Made by a program: the position numbers and the translations under genes
The notes under the pieces: model-generated
Databases searched by the model: none
The model's input: only the letters and a program-made list of their open reading frames with translations
Told to the model about the DNA's origin: nothing
Shown: positions 3,343-27,470 of the stretch, piece by piece
How positions within the stretch are numbered: the first letter of the stretch is position 1
Layout of the letters: each line of letters starts with the position of its first letter
Virus record (IMG/VR): IMGVR_UViG_3300029922_000211
Location: 1-32,679 of that record
Source: a virus
Strand: one strand, 5' to 3'
DNA: 32,679 nucleotides

Positions 3343-4434
3343 ATGAGTATGTATAAAAGTCTCCTCAAAGCTTTGAAAGAACCGTCTCTCGTAAAAGCTG
3401 AGAACCCGGAAGCTTATAAAAAATTGGCTTCTACAGGATTTCTACTAGCTCATCCTGTAAAGATAAAGGGGCAAGATAAAAGACACGATAACGGGATTGG
3501 TTATCATGCTAGTATCAAGTTTTTTGACAAAGATACCGATAAAGAACATGACGCACACAAGGCAGCTTCCAAACTTGAAATGCATCCTCCAAATCCAAAA
3601 GAAGTTGGAATTGAACCTAAGGTTTTAAAAGATCGTAACGGAAACGATGTCTACGCATTGGGCTTAACTGGTAAGCATGCAGATAAGATGAAAGAGCATC
3701 ACGAAAAACTTGGACACATGGGCCACAAAGAAAATTACAAATGGGGCGCACATATTTCAGTTCCTAAATCCGTTCACGACGAAGTTAAAGAAAAAGGTCA
3801 CAAGACAGCCCATGACGCAGGGATCGAATTTGGACACGCAGAGTTAAAAAGAGGCCCTAAAATACTTCAAACTTATAAGCCTAAAGAAGTTAAAAAATCA
3901 GAAGATTTAGAACCATTGATGAAGCCCTTTGTATCTGAAGCCCAAAGAAAATGGGGACACACAGAAGCTGGCAAAAAAGCCCTAGGTGGTAACGCTGGAG
4001 TTCACGAATGGGACGAAGCGACCAAGGGTAAAAAACTTCCAGAGAAGATTACAAAATCAGAAGAGCTAAGGCCTTCAAAGTTAAACATAGAAAAAGGCTC
4101 AAAAGATATCGAATTAAAAAGTTTGGCTCAAATTCAAGAAGAGACAGCCTGGACCTGGGCTTCTCGCGCAGCTGCTGCTTATAAGAAATTAGAAGAAACT
4201 GGCGACTGGAAATGGAAGACTGATGCCGAAGAATATCGTCATGAAGCGGTAGAACATGCGGCCCTTATTGGGGATACTCATCCTACAGTTTTGACAGAAA
4301 TTCATGATGCTTTGGAAGAATATAGAAAAGAAGCTCAAGAATCAGCTGAAGAAATTAAAAAAGCTGAAAAATTAAGTAGACTTTCTGGAGATGACTTAAG
4401 ACGTTATCTAGAAGACAACAAGGGAGAAAAATAA
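3343..4434 (+). CDS. Virion-cluster protein with N-terminal 2H-phosphoesterase-like domain
   Basis: 363 residues. The N-terminal part has two histidine motifs, YHASIKFF with H55-A-S57 and WGAHISVP with H137-I-S139. They are 82 residues apart and separated by a VYALGL strand. Two H-hydrophobic-(S/T)-hydrophobic motifs at this spacing define the 2H phosphoesterase fold (LigT, cyclic-nucleotide phosphodiesterases and the phage anti-CBASS protein Acb1). The middle carries SEAQRKWGHTEAGKKALGG and HEWDEATKGKKLPEK, a short module that resembles ones seen in other phage structural proteins. The C-terminal third is helical and highly charged. K-S-E occurs at about residues 186 and 240. The gene is packed between structural genes, 3 nt after the previous stop. 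Enzyme activity and substrate are unknown. The domain could instead be a non-catalytic structural copy. Confidence 0.6.
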   Translation: MSMYKSLLKALKEPSLVKAENPEAYKKLASTGFLLAHPVKIKGQDKRHDNGIGYHASIKFFDKDTDKEHDAHKAASKLEMHPPNPKEVGIEPKVLKDRNGNDVYALGLTGKHADKMKEHHEKLGHMGHKENYKWGAHISVPKSVHDEVKEKGHKTAHDAGIEFGHAELKRGPKILQTYKPKEVKKSEDLEPLMKPFVSEAQRKWGHTEAGKKALGGNAGVHEWDEATKGKKLPEKITKSEELRPSKLNIEKGSKDIELKSLAQIQEETAWTWASRAAAAYKKLEETGDWKWKTDAEEYRHEAVEHAALIGDTHPTVLTEIHDALEEYRKEAQESAEEIKKAEKLSRLSGDDLRRYLEDNKGEK

Positions 4435-6570: not shown

Positions 6571-7500
6571 ATGAACAAGAATGCCGAAATCTTTCTTAAA
6601 AAGACTCTTGGAGATGATTTTTTAGAATCATTTGGCGATTCTTTGTCTAAAAGCGAAATATACAAACAAGGGACCAGAACAATCACGGACACAAATGACT
6701 TGTTCCAGGGTCTTCAAATTGTTCCAAAAGCTCTTCTGAGTCTTTTAATTCAAGAACTATCACCAATGCAAATTGGCGACAACAAAGAAATAAAGATTCC
6801 CGGTAAAGAAGACACCATTTTAGTTGTTACTAAACATGAAAGAGACAGTTTTTCAGGTCAGATAATTCAGAACAACGTTAAGATATCAGATTTTCTACAT
6901 CGCTCTATTCCTGGACTTGGTTTAGTTCTCCTCTCAATTCTAGAACTCTACAACGTAGATGATCTAAATATGGAACCTTCCTCTGTTGATCACGAAAAAG
7001 AATCTGAAATAAATCGCATTATAGACGAAAGAATGAACTTACATAGCTTAGTTAATAAGGTTGTCGATGGCAAACTAATGCATAGAGACGCGGTTCAACA
7101 ACTTCTTATGTCTAAGCTAAATCAGTTATCTGACGAACATAAGAAGATTGAAGAAGAACATCAAGATATAATGGCCCCAAAAGAAGAGCCAAAGTCTGTG
7201 GTTATAGTATTAGCTCCTAAAAAAAGACCCCTTCAAGAATTCGTTGAAAATAGAAAAAAGAAATTAGATAAAAAAGAACACTTTATTCAGATGGAAAAAT
7301 CTGAAACCGTTTCTTGCACTGATTGCGGTCAAAGCATTTTTTCAAACGGAACCTATTCTGGCTGCATCTGTTACGGTGAAAGTAATAAAAAGCTTCATAT
7401 TAAAAAATCTGAAAATGGCTACAAGATCTCTTTTGGTAGAGGTTGGGACGCTGAAAATATCGAAATGCTGCTTGAAGTACTGAGGAGTCGAAATGGATAA
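6571..7500 (+). CDS. Virion-cluster protein with C-terminal zinc-ribbon-like motif
   Basis: 309 residues. The N-terminal half is mixed alpha/beta (GLQIVPKALLSLLIQELSPM). Residues about 140-235 are helical and charged with coiled-coil character. From residue 249 there is C-T-D-C, then a glycine/serine loop and C-I-C, giving a four-cysteine pattern that could bind zinc. The C-terminus is KISFGRGWDAENIEMLLEVL. K-S-E occurs three times (27-29, about 244 and about 275). The start has no clear ribosome-binding site, and it ends 8 nt inside the next gene, so the two are coupled. Function unknown; perhaps an assembly or chaperone factor for the virion. Confidence 0.5.
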   Translation: MNKNAEIFLKKTLGDDFLESFGDSLSKSEIYKQGTRTITDTNDLFQGLQIVPKALLSLLIQELSPMQIGDNKEIKIPGKEDTILVVTKHERDSFSGQIIQNNVKISDFLHRSIPGLGLVLLSILELYNVDDLNMEPSSVDHEKESEINRIIDERMNLHSLVNKVVDGKLMHRDAVQQLLMSKLNQLSDEHKKIEEEHQDIMAPKEEPKSVVIVLAPKKRPLQEFVENRKKKLDKKEHFIQMEKSETVSCTDCGQSIFSNGTYSGCICYGESNKKLHIKKSENGYKISFGRGWDAENIEMLLEVLRSRNG

Positions 7501-9394
7501 TCAAAATCTTTTTTATGCATTCGATGGAGACGATATTGGAATTCGTCATGCTCAAGCTATTCTTTCCGATAATGTAGGAGAGATTCAGCATATATCTTCA
7601 GAAATCACAGACGCGAACGCCATGGTTAAACAGTTTGTTGAATCCAATGGCGGACAAATGATTAGCTTTGGTGGCGATGAAGGCGTTTTTACGGCCCCAG
7701 CCGATTTTGTAAACTTGCTAGAAGATCTTCGTAAAAAATATGAACAAACCGTAGGCGCCACACTCTCCATTGGCTATGGATCTAAGCCCAGCGAAGCAGG
7801 TAAAGCTCTTTTAGCTGCAAAACAGACCGGTAAAAATAAAATAGTCCAATATGATGAGAATGCTGAAAAATACGCACAAGAAGCTCAACAAGATAGAGAT
7901 TCTGAAAACGCTCCAAAGCTAGAAGAGAGTGAAGAGCAAAAAAAGATTAAAGATGTTTTAGCTTCTGAAGAAAAACCAGAAGAAGATGGTATTAATGAAT
8001 TTGATGAAGCATTTCGTTCTTTAAATGAAGCCCATCAAAACGAAGATGTTGCTTCTGACAAGGTTCTCCCTGCCGGGGCCGATTCAGCACAAAATGAGCC
8101 AACACTTTGCGAACCTGACCAAGAAGATAATAACCTAGGTTACGACTCTGGTTATAAAAACTCGGACCAGATGGTTAGAGAAGAATCGTATCAAAGAAAT
8201 GATTTGACACCTCCAGTTAACAAAAAACCAAATTTAGTGCCTCAAGAAAGAACTAAAGAAGCGGTTTCTACAGATATACAGGAAAGCACTCGTCCAATGA
8301 ACGAAGTGCTTCCAGACCCGAAGGATGAGGAAGCTATGGACAAGAAACCAGCGCCGAAACAGTATCATGGTCAGGCCGAAGGTGAAGGATCTGAAGTTTC
8401 AGAATTACCAGCAGATAACAAACCTAGCGACTTGAAATATAACTATCATGAAGTTACGGAACCACAAGCTGACGTTCCAATTGAAAACGCAACTTCTGAT
8501 ATTGCAGAAGAAACAGAACAACAAGATATGCTTGGCGACAAACATTGCGCCAGCTGTACTTGTGGTAATCACGATGATTCGATTGAAAACGTTTTAGATC
8601 AACATCTAGAGAATTCTAAAGATTTTAATGAACATATAGATAACGATGAGCAAGATGACAATAAAGAGCCATCTGATACAGAAGATCTTTTAGACGCACA
8701 TTTGGAAAATGCAGCTGACTTAGAACATAGAATGGAAAATGGAACCAGCCGTCCAGAAGACTACGATCAAGAAAGCGGCGATATGGGCTTAAGCGAAGAG
8801 GATGCTGGAGAGCCAGATCTTTCCCAGGTTCTTCAGGGTGGGCTAGACCAACACGCTGATAGCATTCAAAAAGAAAAAGTTATACAGTTGGTTGGGCAAG
8901 CCTTAGAAGGCTTCAAATCTCAGAAAGCCATCTTAGATAAAGCGAAAGAACAAGCACCTGAACTACATGACGCTTGTATCAACATGTTAAAAGCAATGAT
9001 AGAATTATGTTCTTTGGCAGGGATAGACGAAAGTCGAGCAGAACAAGAAGTCTCTGAGATTGAAGGGCAATCAGGAGAAGAGGCTCAGAAACCAACTGAA
9101 GCTTGCCCCACCTGCGGTAAAGAAGACGCTCATAAAGAAGCAGCGTCTCCAGCTATAGATAGTCTAGATTCAGCACCAAAATCAGATTCATCAGAACAAA
9201 ATGCTGTAGGGCAATCTGTTAAAAAACTTCCTACTAAGCACGGCACTCCTCATATTGCAAAAGAGCCCATTCCAGAAGGCGGAATTAATGCTAAAGGACA
9301 GAAGAAAGTCACAGATAAAGACGGATCGGTACGTTTTATTGACATGAAACAAGGCAGAGTAAAAGGTCCATCTGGCGTACCTGTAAAAGGGTAA
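7493..9394 (+). CDS. GGDEF/minimal-CRISPR-polymerase-like domain fused to a long acidic tail
   Basis: 633 residues. Residues 1-121 read as a palm-type nucleotidyl cyclase. Strand one is YAFDGDDIG (D11, D13, D14). The hairpin is ISFGGDEGVF (G60-G61-D62-E63). Then come TLSIGYG and AGKALLAAKQTGKNKIVQY, matching the SIG and AK-x-x-GKN ends of GGDEF domains. DGDDIG plus GGDD/E is also the signature of mCpol (minimal CRISPR polymerase) proteins. All acidic residues expected to bind metal are present. The remaining 500 residues are acidic, low-complexity and probably disordered. They include a Cys cluster near 352-358 (CASCTCG), a duplicated (E)xLLDxHLEN unit near 363-415, and CPTCG near 538. The last 60 residues become basic. 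It sits among virion genes and overlaps the previous gene by 8 nt. Its product may be a nucleotide second messenger, or the fold may have been kept as a structural head. Activity is not shown. Confidence 0.6.
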   Translation: MDNQNLFYAFDGDDIGIRHAQAILSDNVGEIQHISSEITDANAMVKQFVESNGGQMISFGGDEGVFTAPADFVNLLEDLRKKYEQTVGATLSIGYGSKPSEAGKALLAAKQTGKNKIVQYDENAEKYAQEAQQDRDSENAPKLEESEEQKKIKDVLASEEKPEEDGINEFDEAFRSLNEAHQNEDVASDKVLPAGADSAQNEPTLCEPDQEDNNLGYDSGYKNSDQMVREESYQRNDLTPPVNKKPNLVPQERTKEAVSTDIQESTRPMNEVLPDPKDEEAMDKKPAPKQYHGQAEGEGSEVSELPADNKPSDLKYNYHEVTEPQADVPIENATSDIAEETEQQDMLGDKHCASCTCGNHDDSIENVLDQHLENSKDFNEHIDNDEQDDNKEPSDTEDLLDAHLENAADLEHRMENGTSRPEDYDQESGDMGLSEEDAGEPDLSQVLQGGLDQHADSIQKEKVIQLVGQALEGFKSQKAILDKAKEQAPELHDACINMLKAMIELCSLAGIDESRAEQEVSEIEGQSGEEAQKPTEACPTCGKEDAHKEAASPAIDSLDSAPKSDSSEQNAVGQSVKKLPTKHGTPHIAKEPIPEGGINAKGQKKVTDKDGSVRFIDMKQGRVKGPSGVPVKG

Positions 9395-9412: not shown

Positions 9413-10285
9413 ATGATCAAACTTACAATAGATTCGAAAGAAATTTTAGCGGCTTGTCAAGAGTCTGTAAAAGAAGTTAAAAAACAACTTTCGAAGTCTG
9501 TTGGAGACCTAGCTAAGGCTACCCAGAGACATGTTTTAGAACTTGCAGATTCAGAACTTAGCTCTAACCTTAAACAAGTTTTTCGTGGTAAAGAAGGCCA
9601 GCAAAATATACATCTTGATACTATTTCACCAGATGTACACGTGATAACCCTGACCGGCTCAGCCTATTGGATTGAAGAGGGTATCCCGAATAATACAGAC
9701 ATGAAAACCGATCGTTGGTTGTTCAAATCCAAGAACACCAAGACTTCGAAAAGTGGCAGCAGGTACTTAGTAATTCCTTTTGAGCACTCTAAGGCATCTT
9801 CAACCCAAACCGGTTACCAAAAGAATTTGACAGACCGTGTTAAGTTTGAATTAAATGCACAAAATAAGGTACGAAAAACAAACGGACTAGGCCCAATCCC
9901 ATGGGCTGGGATTGAAAAAGACAGTAGCGGAAAACCTAAAGAAGGATTGCTTCACGAGTTCGATTTTAAAGGCGGTAAGGCTAGTTCGAAATGGTCTAAC
10001 GATCCTTTAGAAAAATTAAGAGTATATCAGGCTGTAGAAAAAGATTCTGAAGGAAAAACAAAATTGACCAAGGGCGGTAAGGCTAAGGTAAGCCGTTCTT
10101 GGATGACTTTTAGAACTGCTTCTGATAGCACTAAAGTAAATCCGGAAACTGGTAGCTCTCCAAAAGAAAAATTTATTCATCCCGGATATACTGGCAAAAA
10201 GTTTATGGACAAATCGGCAGACTGGGCCGAGCAACAATTCTACAATAATATACTTCCTGATATTTTCTCGAAATGGAAGGATTAA
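9413..10285 (+). CDS. Putative tail-completion / HK97 gp10-like protein
   Basis: 290 residues. The first 50 residues are helical (KEVKKQLSKSVGDLAKATQR), followed by a SAYWIEEGIP segment. The C-terminus has KFIHPGYTGKKFMDKSADWA. The last two resemble the conserved features of HK97 gp10-type head-tail joining proteins, which usually combine a G/P-rich loop carrying H-P-G with a final helix. Here the family core is enlarged by a charged insertion of about 100 residues. Position just before the putative terminator, sheath and tube genes agrees with a role in joining head and tail. GGTGA upstream serves as the ribosome-binding site. Confidence 0.5.
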   Translation: MIKLTIDSKEILAACQESVKEVKKQLSKSVGDLAKATQRHVLELADSELSSNLKQVFRGKEGQQNIHLDTISPDVHVITLTGSAYWIEEGIPNNTDMKTDRWLFKSKNTKTSKSGSRYLVIPFEHSKASSTQTGYQKNLTDRVKFELNAQNKVRKTNGLGPIPWAGIEKDSSGKPKEGLLHEFDFKGGKASSKWSNDPLEKLRVYQAVEKDSEGKTKLTKGGKAKVSRSWMTFRTASDSTKVNPETGSSPKEKFIHPGYTGKKFMDKSADWAEQQFYNNILPDIFSKWKD

Positions 10286-11635: not shown

Positions 11636-12502
11636 ATGTCTAATAATGATAAAAAGTTTTCAGCGCGTGAAGCAGCTCAAGCGGTACTTGCTAAAGCTTA
11701 TCAAGTGTTAGCTAAATCTGAAACACTCAAGAAATATGAAACAGCCAATTCCCCTAAAGCTGGCGTTAAATATGGTAAAATTGAGACAGCACAAAAGCCA
11801 ATGGAACGCGATTATAGTGAATACGAAGTAAAGCCAGGAAGCTCTTTAGATTCCGCTGGACCTCGTTTAAAGAGACAGATTTCGCCTTCCATGAATCCAA
11901 AAGAAGAAGCTGAAGGCAATAATAAGCCCGATGGCATGGAACCTCGTTACGAATTTAAAGATAAAGTTGCAAAAGAGCTTGCTAAAGAAAAAGCTGCTCA
12001 CATGGATAAAGGCGAAAAGCTTGCTAAAGGTGATTGGGCTAAAATTCACAGTAAATTGAAACGTGAAGGTTACTCCGAAGAATCTGCCGACAAGATTGAT
12101 GGCGCTATTAAGGCCAAAATGGGCAAAGCTGAAAATCCAGATAAAGAAGCAGACGCTAAGCTTGGTGAAAAAGTCGAGCATGACGTAGAAGATCATTTTA
12201 AAGAAAACAAAGAAGCAGAAGCCAAAGAAGGACACAAACTCATGGTTAAGCCAGATGAAAAGATGCCTATGAAATCTGAAGAATCAGAAGGCGAAAAAAC
12301 TTTCGTTCCTGCTGCCTTAGTAGGGTCTGCTAAACTTGCTAAGTTTATGGAAAGAAAGCACGCTAAAAGAAAGGCTGCTCAAGGATCTGAATCCCAAGCA
12401 CCAGCTGCCGTTGGAGAACCTGCTTCTGACGCCCCTGCTGCAAGATCTCCAGAAGGTCAGCCAAAAGCTTCATCTGCACCTAATAAAAAGATGCTAGGAT
12501 AA
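11636..12502 (+). CDS. Highly charged virion-cluster protein, possible internal or scaffold-like protein
   Basis: 288 residues, rich in Lys, Glu and Ala and mostly predicted helical or disordered. The N-terminus is AREAAQAVLAKAYQVLAKSE, with K-S-E at 27-29 and again near 216. A short recognisable module near residues 130-160 (LAKGDWAKIHSKLKREGYSE, then SADKIDGAIKAKMGKAE) looks like a small helical domain seen in other phage virion proteins. The C-terminus is Ala/Pro/Ser-rich and ends KKMLG. No catalytic motif. A charged, helical, protease-motif-bearing protein beside tail genes could be scaffold-like or an internal head protein. The evidence is compositional. Confidence 0.5.
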   Translation: MSNNDKKFSAREAAQAVLAKAYQVLAKSETLKKYETANSPKAGVKYGKIETAQKPMERDYSEYEVKPGSSLDSAGPRLKRQISPSMNPKEEAEGNNKPDGMEPRYEFKDKVAKELAKEKAAHMDKGEKLAKGDWAKIHSKLKREGYSEESADKIDGAIKAKMGKAENPDKEADAKLGEKVEHDVEDHFKENKEAEAKEGHKLMVKPDEKMPMKSEESEGEKTFVPAALVGSAKLAKFMERKHAKRKAAQGSESQAPAAVGEPASDAPAARSPEGQPKASSAPNKKMLG

Positions 12503-12795: not shown

Positions 12796-15153
12796 ATGAG
12801 TCAAAGACTATCGACAACTTTTGTCAATACCAATGTACCTGGAGCATATGTTAACTATAACGTATTAACTCAGCCAGTTGGTGTTAGTTCTTCTGGTATC
12901 GTAGTAATCATGGGGGAAGCGGACGGCGGACCTAGTTATGAAAATACTACCCTTATAAAGAGCGTTTATGGACCTGATCAATTGAGCCAGATTGTAAACA
13001 CCTTTACTAGTGGACAAATTGTAGACGCTTTCCAGGCCCTAACAGCTCCTTCAAACGATGCTAATATTACAGGGACTGCTTCTGCTATTTACGTTGTTAA
13101 GACAAATACTGGTACCATCGCAAATGCTACCCTGTCAACTTCGATTCCTTCCACCTACGGAACTCTATCGGATGTAAATTGGGGTATTCTTGGAAATCAA
13201 GACCAATATCAAATTCTTTCTGTAGCTGCTGAAGTTGCTCCCACTGTAACTGGAACAACTATTCCTGCTTTTGGCGCTGCTTTGAATGGTGACACTTTTT
13301 CGATTCGCTTAAACGGCGGACCTGTTGATGTTGTTACTCTTTCTAATACTTCTGCAGATCACTCTAGTATTTCTGCTTTGGTAAATGAATTAAATCAGTA
13401 TACTTTTACAGTCACTTCCGCAAACGCAACCGCTGGAGCCGTATATAGCAATAACGGAAAAACTTTTACTGTAGAATCTACTATCGCTTCTGCTACGACC
13501 CTCCTAGCACTTGGTACTGGAGCACCATTACCATCCGGAACTCTTACGAAAGTAACAGGAACCGGAGATGCAACTATTACCTTCTCTGCAGTTAGCAGAC
13601 TTTTACCAGCTGGTATCAGTGCTTCTGCTGGAACTCCTCTAAACACACTGGCTCTAACGATGGATGCCGATGCTAATGCTTGGAACAACGGATGGGGAAA
13701 ATCGTTTGAACTTATCGATTCAACTCCTGGAGATCTAGCTGCTCTTGGTTTATTAGCCGGTTTAAACATTTCTTCTCAAGAACCAGAAATTGAAATGCAA
13801 GATTCTAATATTTCCAGAGGCGTCAACGAAACGTTGGCTGCTGCTGCAACCGTTGCTCTTAGCGTAGGATATGCTGGAACTAGCGGTACTCTCACTATTG
13901 CTGCTGGAATGCTCACAACCACTGTAACTGGTGGAGTTGGCGGAAACCTAAGTATCAATTTAAGTCAGTATACTACCATCGGTACACTTGCTACTTTTAT
14001 AGCAGCACAACCAGGCTACTCTGCAAGCGTAGCTCCTGTTGCAAATCAACTTCCAACTAGTGCTCTAGACGAAGTTGCTGCTATCGGAATCGCTGCAACT
14101 GGTGCAAGCGACGAACCAGGACGTATTAAAAACGCTCTGTATAATTTCGAACAAGCAATGTCTGTAAGCAGAATACTAGTATTTAGTGCCACGGCCACAT
14201 CTGGATTACCAGCACCAATGGCGATGGCTTCATTCTTATCAGGCGGAACTCGTGGAGCAACTTTGGCTTCCGATATTGTTAATGTTGTGAACTCTTTGGG
14301 TTCAATCAACTGTAATATTATCGTTCCATTGTTTTCTCAAAATGCATCTGCTGACATTGCAGCTGGTTTAACAAGTCCTTCTTCTACCTATACAATTGCT
14401 GCTATTAATGCTCTGTTAAAAAGTCATTGTATTGAATATAGCGATCCAAGTCTCAATAAAAACAGAATTTGTATTCTGTCTTATAACGGAACTTTTGCTA
14501 ATGCCTCTGCAATGGCTCAAACCCTTGCAAGTTATCGTTGTTCTTTGACTTTTCAACAAGTCAATCAGATCAACTCGCTTGGAGTTAGCACCTTATTCCA
14601 ACCTTGGTATGCAAGTGTTGTGGCTGCTGGGATGCAAGCAGGTGGTTTTTATCAGGCTATTGTTAACAAATATGCTAATCTTATTAGCCTTGTAGATCCA
14701 TCCGACTATGATAGTGGAAGTCCTGGAGATACATCTGAAGCTTTAGATGCAGGAACATTGCCTCTTTTCACAGATGTAGGCGGAGTTCGTTGGGTTTCCG
14801 ATCAGACGACATATGGAGTCGATAGTAATTTCGTTTACAATAGTATTCAAGCAGTCTACGATGCAGACTTGATTGCTATTGACTTGAAAGCTAGCTTCTC
14901 GAATGCGTTCGTTGGTAGATCATTAGCAGATGTTTCAGCTGCTTCTGCATCTGCTTTCCTGACTCAGAAAATGAGCACGTATATGCAGCTTAAGTTGATC
15001 GCTCCAAGCAATGGCGCTCCACTTGGGTTTAACAATGCGAAAGTTGCAATTTCTGCACCTACTATGACCATATCACTGAATATCTATCTTGCTACTGCAA
15101 TATATTTTATCCCCATCAGCTTTAGCGTATCCGCTGTTCAACAATCGGCATAA
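12796..15153 (+). CDS. Contractile tail sheath protein
   Basis: 785 residues with an AGGGAGA ribosome-binding site. The N-terminus (PGAYVNYNVLTQPVGVSSSG) is the typical sheath opening that makes the inter-subunit handshake. Residues about 150-450 are Ala/Thr/Gly-rich beta repeats, read as variable outer domains inserted in the core. The conserved core follows (about 480-785), with VRWVSDQTTYG, FVGRSLADVSAASASAFLTQ and a C-terminal beta region suited to subunit linking. It is larger than T4 gp18 (659 residues), because of the inserted domains. The tail tube gene follows directly, the usual order. The sheath contracts to drive the tube through the host envelope, which marks the phage as a myovirus. 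Confidence 0.85.
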   Translation: MSQRLSTTFVNTNVPGAYVNYNVLTQPVGVSSSGIVVIMGEADGGPSYENTTLIKSVYGPDQLSQIVNTFTSGQIVDAFQALTAPSNDANITGTASAIYVVKTNTGTIANATLSTSIPSTYGTLSDVNWGILGNQDQYQILSVAAEVAPTVTGTTIPAFGAALNGDTFSIRLNGGPVDVVTLSNTSADHSSISALVNELNQYTFTVTSANATAGAVYSNNGKTFTVESTIASATTLLALGTGAPLPSGTLTKVTGTGDATITFSAVSRLLPAGISASAGTPLNTLALTMDADANAWNNGWGKSFELIDSTPGDLAALGLLAGLNISSQEPEIEMQDSNISRGVNETLAAAATVALSVGYAGTSGTLTIAAGMLTTTVTGGVGGNLSINLSQYTTIGTLATFIAAQPGYSASVAPVANQLPTSALDEVAAIGIAATGASDEPGRIKNALYNFEQAMSVSRILVFSATATSGLPAPMAMASFLSGGTRGATLASDIVNVVNSLGSINCNIIVPLFSQNASADIAAGLTSPSSTYTIAAINALLKSHCIEYSDPSLNKNRICILSYNGTFANASAMAQTLASYRCSLTFQQVNQINSLGVSTLFQPWYASVVAAGMQAGGFYQAIVNKYANLISLVDPSDYDSGSPGDTSEALDAGTLPLFTDVGGVRWVSDQTTYGVDSNFVYNSIQAVYDADLIAIDLKASFSNAFVGRSLADVSAASASAFLTQKMSTYMQLKLIAPSNGAPLGFNNAKVAISAPTMTISLNIYLATAIYFIPISFSVSAVQQSA

Positions 15154-15793: not shown

Positions 15794-17167
15794 ATGAACA
15801 AAATTAAATGGACCTCAGAAAGGTTACAAGAAGAAGCGCTAAAATATACCAGCCGTGGAGAATTTCAAAAGAACAGTAAGACAGCTTACAATCTAGCACA
15901 AAGACGTGGATACTTAGAACAAATATGCAAACACATGTATATTTTAGATTGTTCTAAAGAAAATAATCCCAACTTTAAATGGACTTATGAAATGCTAAAG
16001 CTAGAAGCATCAAAGTATTATAATAAAACAGATTTCAGAAATAATAATTATCAAGCATATTCGGCAGCATGGAGAAATGGGATATTAAATGAAATTTGTT
16101 TACATATGATAAAAAATAGAAATACTAAAAAAACTATATCAGAAGTATGTGAAATATTAGAAAAAGACGGCTATAAACTGTTAAGTACAGAATACGTAGA
16201 TGCCCATACTAAAATGGAAACTCTTTGTCCGGTTGGACATGCTTACAATACCAAATTGAATGGCTTTTTGGGCGGCTATAGATGTGGTATGTGCTCAGAC
16301 AAAGGCACTTCTGGTCCAGAAAAAGAAATTTTTAATTTTATTAAGGCTTTGCATTCGGATGCTGTTAATAATGATAAAAAATTAGTATATCCTAAAGAAA
16401 TAGATATTTACATTCCATCTATAAGTCTTGCTATCGAATATTGTGGACTTTATTGGCATAATGAAAATAGTCCAGAGCCTAGGCTTAGAATGTATCACAT
16501 CAACAAAATGAAACAGTGTAACGAAAAAGGCATACGTTTAATTACTATATTTGAAGATGAATGGCTAGAAAGACAAGAGCAAGTTAAAAATTTTCTGCTT
16601 TCCGTTATAGGAAAAAATTCGATTAAAATAGGCGCTAGAAAAACTGAGCTTAGGGAAGTTCCAAACAAAGAAGCCGCTATCTTTCTAGAAGAAAATCACA
16701 TACAAGGCAAATCTACTCTAAAAATAGCTTTCGGTCTCTATCATAACGAAGAATTGATAGCTATAGTAACTGGAAACAAACACCATAGAAATGGTCACGA
16801 AAATACTTTTGTATTGAATAGACTTGCTTTTAAAACCAATGTATCTGTTAGTGGCGGTTCTTCTAAACTTCTAAAAGCTTTAATAAAATATGCTAAAAAC
16901 AATGGTTATTCTAAGCTAGTTTCTTGGTCCGACAATAGGTGGTCAGAAGGTAGAGTTTATGAAAAACTTGGCTTTGTTCTTGCAGAGAGTTTGGGTCCCG
17001 ATTACTCGTATGTTCAAAAACAAAGCAGAATTTCCAAACAGTCGTGTCAAAAGAAGAACCTAGTTAAAAAGGGCGCTATTGGTAATACAGAGCATGAAAT
17101 GGCACTGTCTTTAGGACTACACAGAATATGGGATTGTGGAAAAAAACAATGGCTAATAAAGTTATGA
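15794..17167 (+). CDS. Homing endonuclease, EDxHD/Vsr-like, chimeric N-terminus
   Basis: 457 residues. Two repeats of the EALKY...ICxHM type occupy about 6-110. One zinc-finger-like unit follows (CPVGHAYNTK, then YRCGMCSD, about 145-175). Then comes a nuclease core with EIDIYIPSISLAIEYCGLYW, the following H and N, and later LITIFEDEWLERQ. The order D, E, H, then E-D-E-W is that of EDxHD/Vsr-like homing nucleases. The C-terminal 190 residues (EENHIQG, KYAKNNGYSKLVSWSDNRWS, NTEHEMALSLG) match the C-terminus of the minus-strand gene at 29913. It shares its N-terminal repeat type with the genes at 1623, 17274 and 24251, so it is a hybrid of two endonuclease families. It sits between tail tube and terminase with its own promoter. 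Confidence 0.8.
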   Translation: MNKIKWTSERLQEEALKYTSRGEFQKNSKTAYNLAQRRGYLEQICKHMYILDCSKENNPNFKWTYEMLKLEASKYYNKTDFRNNNYQAYSAAWRNGILNEICLHMIKNRNTKKTISEVCEILEKDGYKLLSTEYVDAHTKMETLCPVGHAYNTKLNGFLGGYRCGMCSDKGTSGPEKEIFNFIKALHSDAVNNDKKLVYPKEIDIYIPSISLAIEYCGLYWHNENSPEPRLRMYHINKMKQCNEKGIRLITIFEDEWLERQEQVKNFLLSVIGKNSIKIGARKTELREVPNKEAAIFLEENHIQGKSTLKIAFGLYHNEELIAIVTGNKHHRNGHENTFVLNRLAFKTNVSVSGGSSKLLKALIKYAKNNGYSKLVSWSDNRWSEGRVYEKLGFVLAESLGPDYSYVQKQSRISKQSCQKKNLVKKGAIGNTEHEMALSLGLHRIWDCGKKQWLIKL

Positions 17168-17273: not shown

Positions 17274-18239
17274 ATGCAAAAAATGAAATGGTCTAAAGAA
17301 AAAATTATAAAAGAAGCCCGTAAATACAAAACTAAAACTGAGTTTCATAAACTTAGTGGGGGCGCTTATTTTGTTGCGAATAAAATTGGTATATTAAATG
17401 AGATTTGCTCTCATATGGGTGAATCTAAAAATTCTCCCTGGACGTTTGAAGAGTTACAACAGGAAGCGTTAAAATACAAAACTAGAGGCGAATTTCAAAA
17501 TAAAAATCCAAATATATATCAAGTTGCATATAGAAAAAAAATTCTTGATAAAATATGCGGTCATATGGAGTACATTTGTTACCCTTGGTCTATAGAAGAA
17601 TTACAAGAAGAAGCTTTAAAGTATAATAATAGAACTGAGTTCAGAAAAAAAAGTCCGGCAGCTTATAATACAGCATCTCAGAGAAAAATATTAAACGACA
17701 TATGTAGCCACATGACAAGGTTGCTCAGAGAAGACTGGACGCTTAAAGAGCTAGCCATAGAAGCTTTAAAATACAAAACTCGTTGGGAATTTCAGCAGGC
17801 TAGTTTAGGGGCTTATAAAGCGGCATATAAAAGAAATTTATTAGATGAAATTTGTAAGCATATGATAATAGGCACTAATTCTTCTGTTCCCGAAATATCT
17901 CTTTTTGATATTGTAAAAATGCTATACCCTAAAACCCAAAAACTCGTGGATCGTAAGGGTAAAATCGAAAACAAACCCCATATTAAGGGTTTTGATTTAG
18001 ATATTTACATTCCAGAACTACGTAAGGGTATAGAGTTTGATGGTAAGTTTCACCATTCTTTTGAAGGCCTAAAAAGAGGAAGACCTAATTGGCCAGATGA
18101 AGATTTAAAGATCTATCATGAGCTAAAAGATAATTGGTTCAAAAGTAAAAATATTAAGGTAATTCATGTCAAAGAAGAAGACTGGATTAAAAATAAACAG
18201 GCTTGCATTGATAAATGCTTAGAATTTTTAAATAAATAG
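17274..18239 (+). CDS. Homing endonuclease, Vsr-like/EDxHD type, four N-terminal repeats
   Basis: 321 residues. Four copies of the repeat ending in ICxHM lie in about residues 5-200 (the first as KYKTKTEFHKLSGGAYFV). A nuclease domain follows with GFDLDIYIPELRKGIEFDG and then FHHSFEG and HVKEEDW. The first start (ATG 17274) has no ribosome-binding site; an in-frame ATG at 17283 is possible. DNA at 17960-18040 is identical over 81 bp to 24808-24888. DNA at 18090-18233 is about 95% identical to the end of the gene at 1623. This is a mosaic of the two relatives. It lies between another endonuclease gene and the terminase gene, whose promoter box begins beside its stop codon. Confidence 0.8.
   Translation: MQKMKWSKEKIIKEARKYKTKTEFHKLSGGAYFVANKIGILNEICSHMGESKNSPWTFEELQQEALKYKTRGEFQNKNPNIYQVAYRKKILDKICGHMEYICYPWSIEELQEEALKYNNRTEFRKKSPAAYNTASQRKILNDICSHMTRLLREDWTLKELAIEALKYKTRWEFQQASLGAYKAAYKRNLLDEICKHMIIGTNSSVPEISLFDIVKMLYPKTQKLVDRKGKIENKPHIKGFDLDIYIPELRKGIEFDGKFHHSFEGLKRGRPNWPDEDLKIYHELKDNWFKSKNIKVIHVKEEDWIKNKQACIDKCLEFLNK
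17960..18040 (+). repeat. 81-bp tract identical to 24808-24888
   Basis: By eye the two tracts match at all 81 positions, with different bases immediately outside. Both encode the catalytic core (IENKPHIKGFDLDIYIPELR, ending in EF). The surrounding parts of the two genes are much less alike. Confidence 0.85.
18090..18233 (+). repeat. Tract about 95% identical to 2316-2459
   Basis: Partner of the tract in the endonuclease gene at 1623, with seven differences over 144 bp and no gaps. It begins 50 bp after the identical tract shared with the gene at 24251. Confidence 0.8.
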
Positions 18240-18256: not shown

Positions 18257-21200
18257 ATGGACTTCTCCCAGCTTCAGGATGACAAAAAAGCCGAATTAGC
18301 AAAAATAATGCTAACTCCTCTTAACTCTGCTGCAGAGATTAAGGATTGGGCACGCTTTTATCTTGATCTAGAACTACCCACTGAAAATACCGATCCAGAT
18401 TCTACTTCTAATCCATTAGAAGCGGCATGGTATATATATGAAACCTTTAAAAATAACTGGGGCGACCGTAGACCAGGCGCTATAATGATCAGCTGCAGAG
18501 AAGGTTTAAAAACGATTATAGTTACAATCCTAGAGTTACTTCTAATGGTTCATTTTCAGCTAGAGGTAGGACACGCTGCTGCTATTGAATCTCAATCTGC
18601 AATTGCTCTAGGTTATATCGAAGGATTTCTACTTAAAATTAGTCCTCTCCTAGACGCCGCCGGCTGGATACCAACATCTTCCAATAAACGTGTTATTCGT
18701 TACAAAACACCTCAAAGAAAATCTCCTTTTATTAAAGTTGTTATTTGTTCAAGCAAAGGAATGAACGGCTTACATTCAAACGTCCTTTTCTTAGACGAAT
18801 TAGATCTTGCAGATAAAGCTGCTCTTAAGGAAGGTCAAAATATTACCGGATTTTCTCGTGGTATTCACGGTATGATGGTCCTAGTTTCTTCCTACAAGTA
18901 TTCATTTGGTAATGTTGCCGAAGCGCTAGAAAAGGCAGAAGAAAGAAATTATAAAATATTAAAATGGAATCTTATAGATTTGACTGAAAGATGTCCTACC
19001 GATAGACATTTGCCTGATGGCCCAAAACAAGACATGTATACTTCCAAGAACCTACCTCTAAAAAATCTTACATCCGATGAGTACATTGGGCTACCTGAAG
19101 TCGAAAAATCTAAATACGATTTTATAGCACAAGCGCATGCTGGTTGTGTTAAGTGCCCTCTTTTAGGGCTTTGTAAGACAAAATTAGCAACTAAAGATGC
19201 AGCTGCTACAGGCGGATTTTATAAGCCAATTGGAACCGTCATTCAGAAATTTAGAGAAAATGATCCAGATACTGCTGAATCCCAGCTATTATGCAGAAGA
19301 CCCGGCAGTGAAGGGTTAGTTTATCCAAGATTTAGTGCTGCATCGAATGTCATAACTACAAAACAAGCTTACGAAACTCTAATAGGACCCACTACCTATC
19401 AGGACATATCTGAAGCAACCCTATTATACGAAATGCAAAGAATAGGCATAGAGTTTTTTGCAGGAGTTGACTGGGGTTTCTCTCACGATTTTACTCTTAC
19501 AGTTGTGGCTAAAATTCCAAATGGCGAGTGGTGGCTTATGGAAACCTACGCTAGTCCTGGATTAGAGTTTGATGATATTTTGCAAGTATCTAAGACATTC
19601 AGAGATAAGTACGGTCCACAAAAATGGTGGGTTGACCAAGCAATGCCTGCTTATATTAAGAGTTTTAATAAAAATGGAATGAAGTGTCCTGATTTTACAA
19701 AAGACGTCCTAGGCGGCATATCGGCAGTTAGATCTAAAATAGTTAATTCTAGTGGAAAAAGAAGTTTTAAAATAATTCAAAATGATTCAAATAAAAAAAC
19801 AATAGTAGCCTTGTCAAAGCATCGATTCCAGATCGATGGTCAGGGCAATGTAACCCAGAATCCAGCCGATGAACCAGGTATTGCCGACATTTGTTTTTTA
19901 CCGGAAACCATCATTTATACCAAAAAAGGTGCTAAAGAAATAAAAGATATAGAAACAGGAGATTTAGTATTAACTCATACTGGAAAATTTCAAAAAGTTT
20001 TATCTAAAATAAGTCGACAGTACAAAGGAAAAATTGTTGCGGTAAACTCTCACTGCAAACCCTTAGTTAAAAGCACGCCAAATCACCCTTTTTTCTTATC
20101 TAATTCTACTAGAACTTTTACTAAGGATAAAGACAATTTGACTGGTCAGAGAAGAATAGAAGAGAAATTCTCTTTTAAGCCTATAGGAGAAGTTTTAATT
20201 CCAAAAGGAAAAGAAAGAAAGACAAAACCAATCCCATCTACCTTTTTCCCAAAAATAATAATAAAAAATGAACCATATTTTATAAATTTCTCTAAGTACG
20301 TTCCTGAATGGATAGAAAAAGACGGTTTATTGTATAATAAAATGAGACATAATGGAAAAATAAACAAAAATGTTGAGATAACTGAAGAAATTGCTTTTAT
20401 GGTGGGATATTTTGTAGCAGAAGGTAGTAAAAGCGGGAACGGAAGCGGAGTACATTTTTCTGGACATAACAAAGAAACCAATGTTTTACTATTATTGAAT
20501 GAAGCTACACAGCAATTAGGAGTAAATAATCCCATTTATTTAAATAGTAAAAATGATAATAGTAGGAATATTATTATCAGCAGCAAGCCTCTTCATAATT
20601 TCTTTAATGAATTATCAAAAGAAAAAAATAAAAAATTTCCAGATTTTACACATGATTTAAACAGAAAATGTTTAATCGCTCTATTGTCAGGCTATATATT
20701 TGGAGATGGCCATATAACAAAAAATAATAATGGTATTTCTTCTAATTCTATTAGCAAAAACATATCTTTCACCGTTCATGCACTAATGGCACAACTAGGA
20801 TATAGACCTAGAATAAAATTTATAAAAAGAAAAAATAGATGGAAAGGAATAAACGGCCTTATAAAGAGCGATATGTGGGTTGTTCAGTTAAATTCTTCAG
20901 ATTCTGCTTCTTTTTTAAAAGAAGCTTTTTTAAACGAACTCATTAAAAAGTCTTATATAGATAAAATAAACACAGTTTTAACACCGAAACAGAACTCTTG
21001 TACACAAATTATATTAGAAGATGGAATAAGCTCTTCTATAGTAGACATTACTACAGAAAACTACTCTGGTTTAGTATATAATTTAGAAGTAGAAAACGAC
21101 AATTCTTACGTAGCAAATTGTTCTGCTGTTCATAATTGTGATAATGTACGTTATATCGGACAGAATATGTGGGCCGTAAAGGGTACCCAAAGAGCAATGG

Positions 21201-21358
21201 TTGAATATACAGATGATCCAGGAAAATTGGGATTGCCAAATAAACCTATTCATAAAGCAAATGATCTTATGTTGAACGAAATTACAAAAAGACTTGGCGG
21301 TTCTGCTGTAGTTGCTAGTACTACTAAAAAGAAGGGTGGATTTACATTTTCCGTATAA
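18257..21358 (+). CDS. terL: Large terminase subunit interrupted by an intein
   Basis: 1033 residues including a 415-residue intein; the spliced protein would be 618 residues. The ATPase part has a degenerate P-loop SCREGLKT (79-86) and Walker B VLFLDELDL with D180-E181. A C-x2-C-x5-C cluster at 297-306 (CVKCPLLGLC) is extra and may bind metal. The RNase H-like nuclease has GVDWGFSHDF (D405), WWVDQA and, after splicing, IADICDNVRYIG. The terminase powers DNA packaging into the prohead through the portal and cuts the concatemer. The ATG is preceded by an extended -10 box and no ribosome-binding site. Portal and minor head genes follow. Confidence 0.85.
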   Translation: MDFSQLQDDKKAELAKIMLTPLNSAAEIKDWARFYLDLELPTENTDPDSTSNPLEAAWYIYETFKNNWGDRRPGAIMISCREGLKTIIVTILELLLMVHFQLEVGHAAAIESQSAIALGYIEGFLLKISPLLDAAGWIPTSSNKRVIRYKTPQRKSPFIKVVICSSKGMNGLHSNVLFLDELDLADKAALKEGQNITGFSRGIHGMMVLVSSYKYSFGNVAEALEKAEERNYKILKWNLIDLTERCPTDRHLPDGPKQDMYTSKNLPLKNLTSDEYIGLPEVEKSKYDFIAQAHAGCVKCPLLGLCKTKLATKDAAATGGFYKPIGTVIQKFRENDPDTAESQLLCRRPGSEGLVYPRFSAASNVITTKQAYETLIGPTTYQDISEATLLYEMQRIGIEFFAGVDWGFSHDFTLTVVAKIPNGEWWLMETYASPGLEFDDILQVSKTFRDKYGPQKWWVDQAMPAYIKSFNKNGMKCPDFTKDVLGGISAVRSKIVNSSGKRSFKIIQNDSNKKTIVALSKHRFQIDGQGNVTQNPADEPGIADICFLPETIIYTKKGAKEIKDIETGDLVLTHTGKFQKVLSKISRQYKGKIVAVNSHCKPLVKSTPNHPFFLSNSTRTFTKDKDNLTGQRRIEEKFSFKPIGEVLIPKGKERKTKPIPSTFFPKIIIKNEPYFINFSKYVPEWIEKDGLLYNKMRHNGKINKNVEITEEIAFMVGYFVAEGSKSGNGSGVHFSGHNKETNVLLLLNEATQQLGVNNPIYLNSKNDNSRNIIISSKPLHNFFNELSKEKNKKFPDFTHDLNRKCLIALLSGYIFGDGHITKNNNGISSNSISKNISFTVHALMAQLGYRPRIKFIKRKNRWKGINGLIKSDMWVVQLNSSDSASFLKEAFLNELIKKSYIDKINTVLTPKQNSCTQIILEDGISSSIVDITTENYSGLVYNLEVENDNSYVANCSAVHNCDNVRYIGQNMWAVKGTQRAMVEYTDDPGKLGLPNKPIHKANDLMLNEITKRLGGSAVVASTTKKKGGFTFSV
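19892..21136 (+). mobile_element. Intein with LAGLIDADG homing endonuclease in the terminase
   Basis: Residues 546-960 of the terminase frame. Block A begins at Cys546 (CFLPETIIYTKKGAKEIKDI). Block B has T-P-N-H in KSTPNHPFFLS. The endonuclease has two LAGLIDADG-type helices, MVGYFVAEGS (about nt 20400-20430) and LSGYIFGDG (about nt 20683-20710). Block F is YSGLVYNLEVENDNSYVA and block G is SAVHN. The penultimate His, final Asn and the following Cys961 are all present, so splicing should be active. The insertion lies inside the conserved D-I-C-D-N segment of the nuclease domain, close to a catalytic acid. Confidence 0.9.
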
Positions 21359-22398: not shown

Positions 22399-24249
22399 AT
22401 GGACCAAAAAGATAAAAATAAAATTGCTATTGGTTTTGGTGATAGCATAGAAGATGCCGAAGAGCGATCTGGTCTATCAGCATTGGAAAATGCTATTCAA
22501 AAAATGGATTCTCCAGAATACCTAGCTAAGAGCGAGTCCCCGCTTTCTCAATTGATAAAACAAACGACTGGTGCTGCTAAAAAGAAAGCGCCAAGTTTAG
22601 CATTTACAGAACTCCCTTCTCCTCAGTCAAACTTTCTAGGTCTTTTTAAAGCTAGAACAAGACTACTTCCTCCAGAACTTATCAAAACGGTTAGAATTAC
22701 CGATCATCTAATTGCTGCAATTCTTAGAACTCGCGGCAACATAATGAAACTCTATGGCCATCTTAAAAAAGATCGCTTTGACGTTGGTATTGAACTTAAA
22801 ATTAAGCCCGAGTTTTTAAAAGTTTTGAATCCGGAACAATATGAAAAAATTGTAAAAAGGATGAAAAGACTAGAGACTATTCTTTTAAATTGCGGTCACA
22901 CCGAAGGCCTAGAACATCATGACCAAATGACTCTAGCAGATTTCATGAGCACTCAGACTATTAACGGACTGAGCTTTGGTTCTCATGCTACAGAAATTAT
23001 CTATGATCGTTCTCATGAGCCAGATGAAAACGGTAATTTCCCTTTTCATAGATTTAGACCAAGAGACATGGCTACTATCTATCGTGCAGTTCGAAGGGGC
23101 GAACAAGTTGGAAGTAACCTCAGAGAACTAGCTCTAAAAGCTCTAGAAGCAATGGATGGCAAGAGTTTTAATATTGATATTAAAAAGCTTAGAGAAGACG
23201 AATACGCCTGGTTGCAAGTTATAGAAGGCCAACCAAGACAGGCTTTTACTGATAACGAAATGATTATCTATAATCTATTTCCTTCAACCGATGTAGAGCA
23301 CAACGGATATCCTGTTAGCCCTTTAGACACTTGCATTAACTGTATTACTACTCATATTTCTATCGAAGCTTATTGGAAGACCTATTTTAGTAACGGTAAG
23401 TCGGCTAAGGGTATGCTCGTCATCAAGAGTGATGAGGTTGACCAGCAGATGATCGACGCGATTAAGATGCAGTTTAATGCTTCTATTAATTCCGTATCAA
23501 ACGCTTTCAGAACTCCTATTTTCGGCCTCTCAAAAGGAGACGAAGTAGAATGGACAAGTACTGCTGACAAACTAGAGAATGGCGAATTCGGGTACACATA
23601 CGATGCGGTTGCCCGTAATATCCTGTCTTCTTTTGGTGTTTCTCCAGACGAAATCCCAGGATACGGGCATCTTTCCAAATCTTCTAATTCTCAAACTTTG
23701 AGTGAATCTAACAACGAATTTAAAATGACCGCTGCCAGAGATTCTGGATTGCGTCCTCTTATCCTAGGGTGGCAAACTTTCTTTAATCAGCGTTTAATTC
23801 CAATCATTGACCCAGAATTAGGCCAATTGATAGATCTCAAACTTTCTGGTTTAGATAGTGAATCTAAAGAACAAGAAGCTGCTAGATTACAACAAGACTC
23901 TGAACTTTTCTATGATTATGACTCCTTATTGAGAGAAGTGGATCTTGAAGGTGTCGGCGAGGCAATGGGCGGCAGAATGCCGTTCAACGAAAGATATCGT
24001 CAAGTTCTAGACTTCTACACTAGTGTTGGTGAAATTAGAGGCAGATTTTTTGGCGATCCAGGCGCAACTTTTGATCCTCTTCTTAGATTCAAAAGAGATG
24101 CGTTTTGGTTACAGAACATACAATTACAAATACAAACTAACCCAAATAGCATCAAAGCCCTATATGCTCCTAGAGATCCAGAGTTAACCAAAGAATTACT
24201 CGAAATGGAAATTCAGGACATGCTAGAATCGGACGAGGAAGGAGTATAG
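22399..24249 (+). CDS. Portal protein
   Basis: 616 residues. It has the portal sequence layout: an N-terminal acidic tail, a ALRTRGNI-like helix segment (RITDHLIAAILRTRG), an EYAWLQVIEGQP region, a long central IISIEAYWKTYFSNGKSA-like segment, SKGDEVEWTSTADKLENGEF, and a GVSPDEIPGYGHLSKSSNSQ loop before the C-terminal stem (GLRPLILGWQTFFNQRLIPI). The dodecameric portal forms the head vertex through which DNA is packaged. K-S-E at 44-46 (YLAKSESPL) would be a site for trimming an N-terminal arm by the prohead protease. It is followed 1 nt later by a homing endonuclease gene, then head genes. Confidence 0.8.
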   Translation: MDQKDKNKIAIGFGDSIEDAEERSGLSALENAIQKMDSPEYLAKSESPLSQLIKQTTGAAKKKAPSLAFTELPSPQSNFLGLFKARTRLLPPELIKTVRITDHLIAAILRTRGNIMKLYGHLKKDRFDVGIELKIKPEFLKVLNPEQYEKIVKRMKRLETILLNCGHTEGLEHHDQMTLADFMSTQTINGLSFGSHATEIIYDRSHEPDENGNFPFHRFRPRDMATIYRAVRRGEQVGSNLRELALKALEAMDGKSFNIDIKKLREDEYAWLQVIEGQPRQAFTDNEMIIYNLFPSTDVEHNGYPVSPLDTCINCITTHISIEAYWKTYFSNGKSAKGMLVIKSDEVDQQMIDAIKMQFNASINSVSNAFRTPIFGLSKGDEVEWTSTADKLENGEFGYTYDAVARNILSSFGVSPDEIPGYGHLSKSSNSQTLSESNNEFKMTAARDSGLRPLILGWQTFFNQRLIPIIDPELGQLIDLKLSGLDSESKEQEAARLQQDSELFYDYDSLLREVDLEGVGEAMGGRMPFNERYRQVLDFYTSVGEIRGRFFGDPGATFDPLLRFKRDAFWLQNIQLQIQTNPNSIKALYAPRDPELTKELLEMEIQDMLESDEEGV

Positions 24250-24250
24250 T

Positions 24251-25105
24251 ATGAAACGCATCAGATGGACTAATGAAATGTTACAAGAAGAAGCATTGAA
24301 ATTTAATAACAAAAGAGATTTTCATAATAATAGTCCTGCGTATAAGACAGCCTCGTTTCGAGGAATTTTAGACGATATTTGTAAACATATGCCCGAAGTC
24401 TCCAACTTTCCCTGGTCTATAGAAGAATTACAAGAAGAAGCTTTAAAATATAAAAGTAGAAAACATTTTCAGATAAATAGCAATGCCTATCAAGTAGCAC
24501 AAAAAAGAAAAATACTAGATCAAATTTGTTCACATATGCCAAAACATATGGATGTGTCTGGTAAAAATCATTCAAGATTTAAATGGACTTTGGAAAAACT
24601 GCAAATAGAAGCCTTAAAGTATAATAATAGAGGCGATCTATTTCTAAAAAATTTAGGTGCATATAAAGCTGCGGTACGATTAGAGATATTAGATGAAATC
24701 TGTAAACATATGAATAAATCTCATAATATTTCTAAACCAGAACAAAATTTATTTGATACAATTAAAAATATTTATCCAAAAACTCAGATTTTAAGAAAAC
24801 GTAGTATTAAAATCGAAAACAAACCCCATATTAAGGGTTTTGATTTAGATATTTACATTCCAGAACTACGTAAGGGTATAGAGTTTGACGGAACTTATTG
24901 GCATTCTGTGGAAGGATTAAAAAGATCCAGACAACATTGGCCTAGTGAAGATTTGACCGATTATTCTAAAATTAAGGATAGTTATTTCGCTTCAAAAGGT
25001 ATCCAAATATTTCATATCAAGGAAGAAGACTGGAATAAAGATAAACAAGTTTGTATTGATAAATGTTTAGAATTTTTGAATGTTACATTGGAAAAGGTAG
25101 CTTAA
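24251..25105 (+). CDS. Homing endonuclease, Vsr-like/EDxHD type, three N-terminal repeats
   Basis: 284 residues. Repeats lie at about 5-50, 55-100 and 114-158, each ending in ICxHM (ICKHMPEV, ICSHMPKH, ICKHMNKS). The nuclease domain begins near 165, with GFDLDIYIPELRKGIEFDG followed by TYWHSVEG and HIKEEDW. Unlike its relatives at 1623 and 17274 it has no promoter of its own. AAGGAG inside the end of the portal gene is the ribosome-binding site, so it would be expressed with the portal. Its catalytic core shares an 81-bp identical tract with the gene at 17274. It sits between the portal and the gene at 25107. Confidence 0.8.
   Translation: MKRIRWTNEMLQEEALKFNNKRDFHNNSPAYKTASFRGILDDICKHMPEVSNFPWSIEELQEEALKYKSRKHFQINSNAYQVAQKRKILDQICSHMPKHMDVSGKNHSRFKWTLEKLQIEALKYNNRGDLFLKNLGAYKAAVRLEILDEICKHMNKSHNISKPEQNLFDTIKNIYPKTQILRKRSIKIENKPHIKGFDLDIYIPELRKGIEFDGTYWHSVEGLKRSRQHWPSEDLTDYSKIKDSYFASKGIQIFHIKEEDWNKDKQVCIDKCLEFLNVTLEKVA
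24808..24888 (+). repeat. 81-bp tract identical to 17960-18040
   Basis: Second copy of the shared catalytic-core tract. A separate shared run of 35 bp, around 24413-24447 and 17586-17620, encodes part of a repeat unit. Confidence 0.85.
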
Positions 25106-27101: not shown

Positions 27102-27470
27102 TCAAATTTCATGCCAAGACTTTATACGATTTTTAACTATTTTTTTAGCATGACTGTAAAAATTTTTATATTCATATACTTCGACACCATTAATTCTAAG
27201 TAGTTGAATAGCAAACCAATTCGCCTGCTCTTCTGTTCTATTCTTTTTAGCTCTTTTGAATAGCTTACCCTTAGTCATATAAAAGAGATGCCCCGATTCA
27301 TGCGCAAGTATGAAATATTTTTCTTTATACGAAAGACTTGGTTTAATAAATATAAAAGCCTTTAAAGATCCTACTTGACAGCAGTACCCTAGAAAGTCGT
27401 GATCGCATATACAACATCCTAAGTTAGTCAAATCGTTGGCTAATTCTTTATAAAGTTCTTTATAGTTCAT
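27102..27470 (-). CDS. ImmA/IrrE-type metallopeptidase
   Basis: 122 residues. YFILAHESGHLFYM gives the HExxH zinc motif (H57, E58, H61). RTEEQANWFAIQLL (about 78-91) supplies the third ligand region (E80/E81) in the ExxAN-FA form typical of the ImmA/IrrE (M78) family. In phage and mobile elements such peptidases usually cleave repressors; no repressor-type partner is seen beside it here. Five cysteines (19, 20, 22, 30, 31) in the N-terminal part are unusual and could be a second metal site. It is short compared with ImmA, but the catalytic motif is intact. It begins a minus-strand operon behind its own promoter. Confidence 0.75.
   Translation of the reverse strand: MNYKELYKELANDLTNLGCCICDHDFLGYCCQVGSLKAFIFIKPSLSYKEKYFILAHESGHLFYMTKGKLFKRAKKNRTEEQANWFAIQLLRINGVEVYEYKNFYSHAKKIVKNRIKSWHEI

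Follow-up and report, generated by a model that had tools for sequence, protein, structure and literature searches.

Why does a gene in the structural cluster of a phage open with what looks like an enzyme that makes a nucleotide signal? The gene lies in a single virus record of 32,679 bases (the window, by which we mean the whole stretch of DNA that was analysed), which among named phages is closest to Myxococcus phage Mx1. The open reading frame at 7493-9394 on the plus strand starts with ATG and encodes 633 aa, arranged as an mCpol head, an acidic linker, a helical module and a basic tail. A preliminary description of this DNA had pointed out cyclase-type motifs at the N-terminus, and these were borne out as DGDD (residues 11-14, 7523-7534), GGDE (residues 60-63, 7670-7681), SIGYG (residues 92-96) and AKQTGKN (residues 109-115, 7817-7837), all on the plus strand. 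The acidic, cysteine-bearing tail that it had described was also found. Residues 121-460 (7853-8872, plus strand) form a low-complexity linker of 340 residues with 28% D/E versus 9% K/R, and two CxxC motifs are located at residues 352 (8546-8557) and 538. The linker is followed on the same strand by a conserved helical module (residues 461-510, 8873-9022) and by a basic C-terminal tail (KKLPTKHG...GPSGVPVKG, 9221-9391), which is a separate 66-aa gene in one relative, L067.

In sequence and predicted fold, the head of this protein is almost certainly an mCpol domain. Residues 7-120 (7511-7852, plus strand) matched the Pfam mCpol family (PF18182) with an E-value of 1.8e-20 and 73.8-77.7 bits against a cut-off of 26.4, and the NCBIfam mCpol model (NF033576) with 52.8 bits against a cut-off of 40. 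The 633-aa protein also matched the PADLOC CARF_HEPN_mCpol model (2.1e-9) and, by sequence, the Panoptes OptS structures 9mnr and 9nwn (~6e-9). The Pfam match was obtained for 29/29 phage domains, each scanned singly. An AlphaFold2 model of the domain, for which an alignment of 29 phage homologues was the input, had a mean pLDDT of 94.1. Its six best PDB matches in Foldseek were all OptS/mCpol chains (TM 0.82-0.89, rmsd 1.4-1.7 Å, E ~2e-9 to 1e-8), with GGDEF and Cas10 palms ranking after them (E ~3e-5). The assignment is made because the Pfam, NCBIfam and PDB sequence matches agree with the AlphaFold2/Foldseek ranking. The mCpol signature noted in the preliminary description is thus mCpol-type by Pfam, NCBIfam, PDB sequence and structure and not merely GGDEF-like, and the fold search that it had proposed placed mCpol first, ahead of GGDEF and GTP cyclohydrolase III. 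Two other identities were considered and rejected. A GGDEF diguanylate cyclase was discarded as the window protein has no PF00990 match and GGDEF structures rank below mCpol, and GTP cyclohydrolase III (2qv6) was discarded as it ranks 25th in Foldseek, with an E-value of 2e-4 versus 2e-9 for mCpol.

In KpOptS, D6 and D57 hold the metals and are required for activity, and S30 touches the adenine (PMC12657218, PMC12657230). Alignment placed D11, D62 and S35 of the window protein at these three positions. Site statistics were compiled over 41 distinct phage mCpol domains. D13 was present in 41/41 and D62, K110 and K114 each in 40/41; the D11 column was Asp in 30 domains, Asn in 10 and Ser in one, and the S35 column was Ser in 34 and Thr in seven. 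The preliminary description had listed D11, D13, D14 and D62 among the retained metal-binding residues. D13 and D62 stood across the relatives and D11 was Asp in 30 of the 41, but D14 was not conserved, its column varying freely (N/G/S/D). Relatives lacking D11 or D62 had been proposed as an argument against catalysis, and D62 was lacking in a single domain and D11 in the 11 with Asn or Ser. With the degenerate Mx1 sequence left out, the sole invariant columns in the 40 non-degenerate domains (~27 effective) were D13, G16, G61, D62, G94, G96, K110 and K114, of which D13, D62, K110 and K114 are common also to KpOptS and a plasmid mCpol. K110 and K114 are presumed to be triphosphate-binding lysines, a role taken from GGDEF/mCpol enzymes. 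In almost every comparable pair, the mCpol domain was under tighter constraint than the remainder of the protein, with pN of 0.08 versus 0.16-0.22 in pairs whose synonymous sites were near saturation, and in one N-type pair the dN/dS was 0.07 for the domain versus 0.30 for the remainder. Judged by their sequences, the D-type phage domains are likely to be catalytically competent. The Asn-type domains (10/41) may be inactive or may use D13 instead, since the residue equivalent to the catalytic D6 is Asn. As the mCpol catalytic site is preserved by selection, these data suggest that phages of the Mx1-related lineage produce their own nucleotide signal.

When either the whole protein or the mCpol domain alone served as a single-sequence query against viral contigs, no relatives were returned. 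Relatives were gathered through mCpol and sheath alignments, and the scan with a three-sequence sheath alignment gave 214 viral stretches with relatives, of which 80 were kept. An mCpol-family head was present in 34/37 loci with both flanking genes, some of these loci being near-duplicates. The upstream neighbour in the window (6571-7500, plus strand, 309 aa) is conserved in Mx1 and relatives and is translationally overlapping with the mCpol gene by 8 nt, an overlap that is kept in many relatives. The conserved downstream neighbour (9413-10285, plus strand, phrog_16819) occupies a neck-region position, and the tail sheath gene (12796-15153, plus strand) encodes a homologue with 39% identity to the tail sheath annotated in Mx1. 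The gene order of upstream protein, mCpol protein, two neck-position proteins, sheath and tube was identical in Mx1, the sole isolate among the relatives, and in those from IMG/VR. Homologues of tail sheath, tube, portal and terminase share the cluster with the mCpol gene, in agreement with the structural-gene setting originally described. The phage mCpol proteins of the lineage are acidic virion-cluster proteins of 385-790 aa. Gene position and synteny indicate that the mCpol protein of this Mx1-like myophage lineage most likely belongs to the virion module and is made late. Stand-alone mCpol of the Panoptes type was not found in the viral contigs or phage records searched.

All 50 orthologues have the ~50-residue helical module near the C-terminus, downstream of the acidic linker, which in many of them carries CxxC knuckles. 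Three of them keep the slot without mCpol: in L016 (5975-7297) and L062 (5944-7377) the domain is cleanly absent, and in L067 (3943-5310) a different N-terminal segment stands in its place. These three are rich in repeated CPYC/CxYC knuckles that are probably zinc-binding. In the sheath tree, the Asn-type domains form one clade, and mCpol was lost at least twice, because the mCpol-less relatives sit at two places inside the mCpol-bearing group. These data bear on the suggestion that, in a neck or head-completion protein, the mCpol fold is a head without catalytic activity that serves structure or nucleotide binding. Strict synteny and the fusion to a conserved helical module fit such a head, as do the degenerate orthologues of Mx1 and L086 and the clade in which D11 is replaced by Asn. 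However, the invariant positions belong to the motifs for catalysis and nucleotide binding, and mCpol is not needed for structure, since the remainder persists after deletion of the entire domain. We consider an inert head, which the preliminary description had raised, to be decidedly improbable. Because the domain is deletable yet its site is kept wherever the domain stays, mCpol behaves in these sequences as an accessory enzyme, a selected enzymatic module, rather than as an essential structural part.

In Mx1 itself, the orthologue (OR576727.2, 33963-35369) scores below the Pfam mCpol cut-off (E 4.6e-4), has Ala in place of D62 and has lost the catalytic residues. The same phage encodes a GGDEF protein with an intact motif (WNM70324.1, OR576727.2 17173-17904) between the prohead protease and capsid genes. 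It is possible that in Mx1 one cyclase was replaced by another, GGDEF taking the place of the degenerate mCpol. The Mx1 GGDEF protein suits a reading in which an active or nucleotide-binding mCpol serves the phage's own programme, as a messenger or NTP sensor timing assembly, lysis or host reprogramming, with the GGDEF protein of its head cluster having taken over in Mx1, the phage with a decayed mCpol. The position of the mCpol gene in a late structural module suits it also, and so does the near-universal retention in the lineage although the candidate host phylum rarely has mCpol, CBASS or type III cyclases. The contig of one relative (L087) is binned with a Myxococcota metagenome assembly and that of L086, with its degenerate mCpol, with an Elusimicrobia assembly. 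No mCpol was found in 57 other genomes of the candidate phylum, CBASS cyclases were found in 3/58 and Cas10 in 1-2/58, figures that depend on an uncertain and weak host assignment. Since host mCpol, CBASS and Cas10 are absent or rare, near-universal mCpol retention fits counter-defence alone poorly, and the host side offers little support for a role directed solely against Panoptes or CBASS. Nevertheless, the two independent losses count against a role in the phage's own programme. Neither mCpol nor GGDEF occurs elsewhere in the near-complete genomes of L062 and L067 (G019, 170 kb, and G020, 166 kb), and a signal that was lost twice without a replacement cyclase is dispensable for the phage programme. 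A receptor for such a signal was not identified either. Taken together, a role in the phage's own programme is possible but on the unlikely side.

As mCpol is the OptS enzyme of Panoptes, the domain could instead belong to a phage-borne, Panoptes-like guard against rival phages or superinfection. The Cap15-like effector model (PF18153) had no match in 25 phage records, many of them fragments, and none in the control genomes, but it detected the true, plasmid-borne OptE at 4.6e-19. The OptE protein sequence likewise had no convincing relative in 15 phage records. The gene is moreover in a late structural cluster and not in a moron or defence island, and we regard a guard as very improbable indeed. 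Identity with a Panoptes system as such was rejected, as no Cap15-like effector was found, the domain is fused to a virion-cluster tail of ~500 aa and the neighbourhood is unlike that of the Sulfitobacter plasmid.

The late cluster that carries the mCpol gene also encodes a 2H-phosphoesterase-like protein (3343-4434, plus strand) with HASI at residues 55-58 and HISV at residues 137-140, its superfamily being that to which the anti-CBASS enzyme Acb1 belongs. Neither histidine varies in the aligned family, and both HxS/T motifs are present in 15/15 rows. A structure model of this protein had a pLDDT of 82.7, and its Foldseek matches with a probability of at least 0.9 were all 2H enzymes (E 1e-3 to 7e-2), among them phage BCSR5 phosphodiesterase, Usb1 and Acb1, with modest scores. 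The gene was found in 19/37 records tested, comprising 18 with D-type mCpol, none with N-type and one without mCpol, the genome of L067. The contrast between 18/23 D-type and 0/8 N-type records (Fisher p 1.6e-4) is confounded by descent, and because the N-type domains are one clade it is an association and not proof of a link. Strict coupling of the two genes was rejected, as the genome of L067 has the 2H gene without mCpol and the N-type records have mCpol without the 2H gene. The 2H phosphoesterase of many phages in the lineage could remove host signals.

The motif hydrophobic-x-K/A-S/A-E was enriched in the proteins of the window, with 17 occurrences versus 5.1 expected from shuffles. The hydrophobic-x-K-S-E form recurs in the products of 6571-7500, 11636-12502, 22399-24249, 28575-29855 and others, and the motif is a possible prohead-protease processing site. 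One such sequence, LASE (residues 156-159, 7958-7969), is located just past the mCpol domain and is a tentative processing site. Across the mCpol orthologues, the motif was not above chance (16 versus 15.2 expected), so that release of mCpol by cleavage is a mere suggestion. Several other genes of the window were recognisable. The terminase large subunit (18257-21358, plus strand) is split by an intein with a LAGLIDADG endonuclease, and five genes resembling homing endonucleases lie amid the structural cluster (1623-2483, 15794-17167, 17274-18239 and 24251-25105 on the plus strand and 29913-31352 on the minus strand), of which at least that at 15794-17167 has a GNAT-like C-terminus. On the minus strand, the product of 31402-32652 matches the C-terminal part of Cpn60/TCP-1 chaperonins (E 5.6e-13) and that of 27102-27470 is an IrrE/ImmA-like M78 peptidase (E 3.8e-7).

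Our best explanation is that the protein is an active cyclic-dinucleotide synthase, tethered to the virion module, that interferes with host cyclic-nucleotide signalling. We infer its activity, product, packaging and role, and as a whole chain we hold this account to be evenly balanced between right and wrong. The N-terminal mCpol would be an active synthase of the OptS/Cas10-palm type, probably acting as a dimer. It would probably use ATP and yield an adenine-containing 2',3'-type cyclic dinucleotide, since Ser35 (Ser30 of KpOptS) is conserved. The acidic linker and helical C-terminus would tether the enzyme to the head-neck assembly module, and because of this tie it may either be packaged and injected or be produced late beside the particle. 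During infection, its product would compete with host ligands or act as a decoy for them, and would in this way disturb the cyclic-nucleotide signalling of the host. We think it unlikely that the further version applies, in which the lineage packages and injects an active Panoptes-type cyclase so that, from the first minutes, its own 2',3'-type cyclic dinucleotide occupies immune receptors or holds inhibitory-type effectors off, and the 2H phosphoesterase from the same cluster clears host signals.

To our knowledge, phages are known to counter nucleotide-based immunity by taking the signal away, with sponges and hydrolases. An mCpol kept throughout a phage lineage with a selected catalytic site would mean that phages make such signals too, and if the packaged-cyclase reading is true, it would be counter-defence by making rather than destroying a signal. 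Such an mCpol would make it possible to test concretely whether CBASS, Panoptes or type III receptors can be saturated or spoofed by a virus. The putatively active D-type, the Asn-type, the degenerate and the cleanly deleted forms provide a defined set of natural states for experiment. A phage mCpol would also help to explain the origin and movement of bacterial mCpol. We came across no description of mCpol as part of a phage virion module in the literature searched, which is no proof of absence.

The phage domain resembles the Panoptes OptS/mCpol enzymes (9mnr, 9pd0, 9nwn; PMC12657218, PMC12657230) in its fold, its Pfam and NCBIfam family, its Asp pair and its adenine-contact Ser. In contrast, Panoptes mCpol is a stand-alone protein of ~120-130 aa beside a Cap15-like OptE effector, often with CBASS, whereas the phage mCpol is the head of a larger protein, with a GGDE-type loop where OptS has AADG. 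Mx1 (OR576727.2) shares the orthologous slot, the neighbours and the C-terminal module but differs from the window in its degenerate mCpol site and in the separate GGDEF protein near the capsid gene. The product of 3343-4434 is like the anti-CBASS 2H phosphoesterase Acb1 (7t26, 7t27) in its two HxS/T motifs and its fold match to 2H enzymes, but the likeness is weak (Foldseek E ~0.03, TM 0.30-0.42) and the BCSR5 phosphodiesterase and Usb1 score better. GGDEF domains with predicted cyclic-nucleotide signals were described in a few giant phage polyvalent proteins by Iyer et al. 2017 (PMC5512222). Those proteins are alike in that a palm that makes cyclic nucleotides is part of a multidomain protein delivered by the phage and is proposed to disturb host nucleotide signalling. 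Unlike the polyvalent GGDEF, the domain here is an mCpol that is lineage-wide and syntenic in a virion module, with its site under selection and its losses traced.
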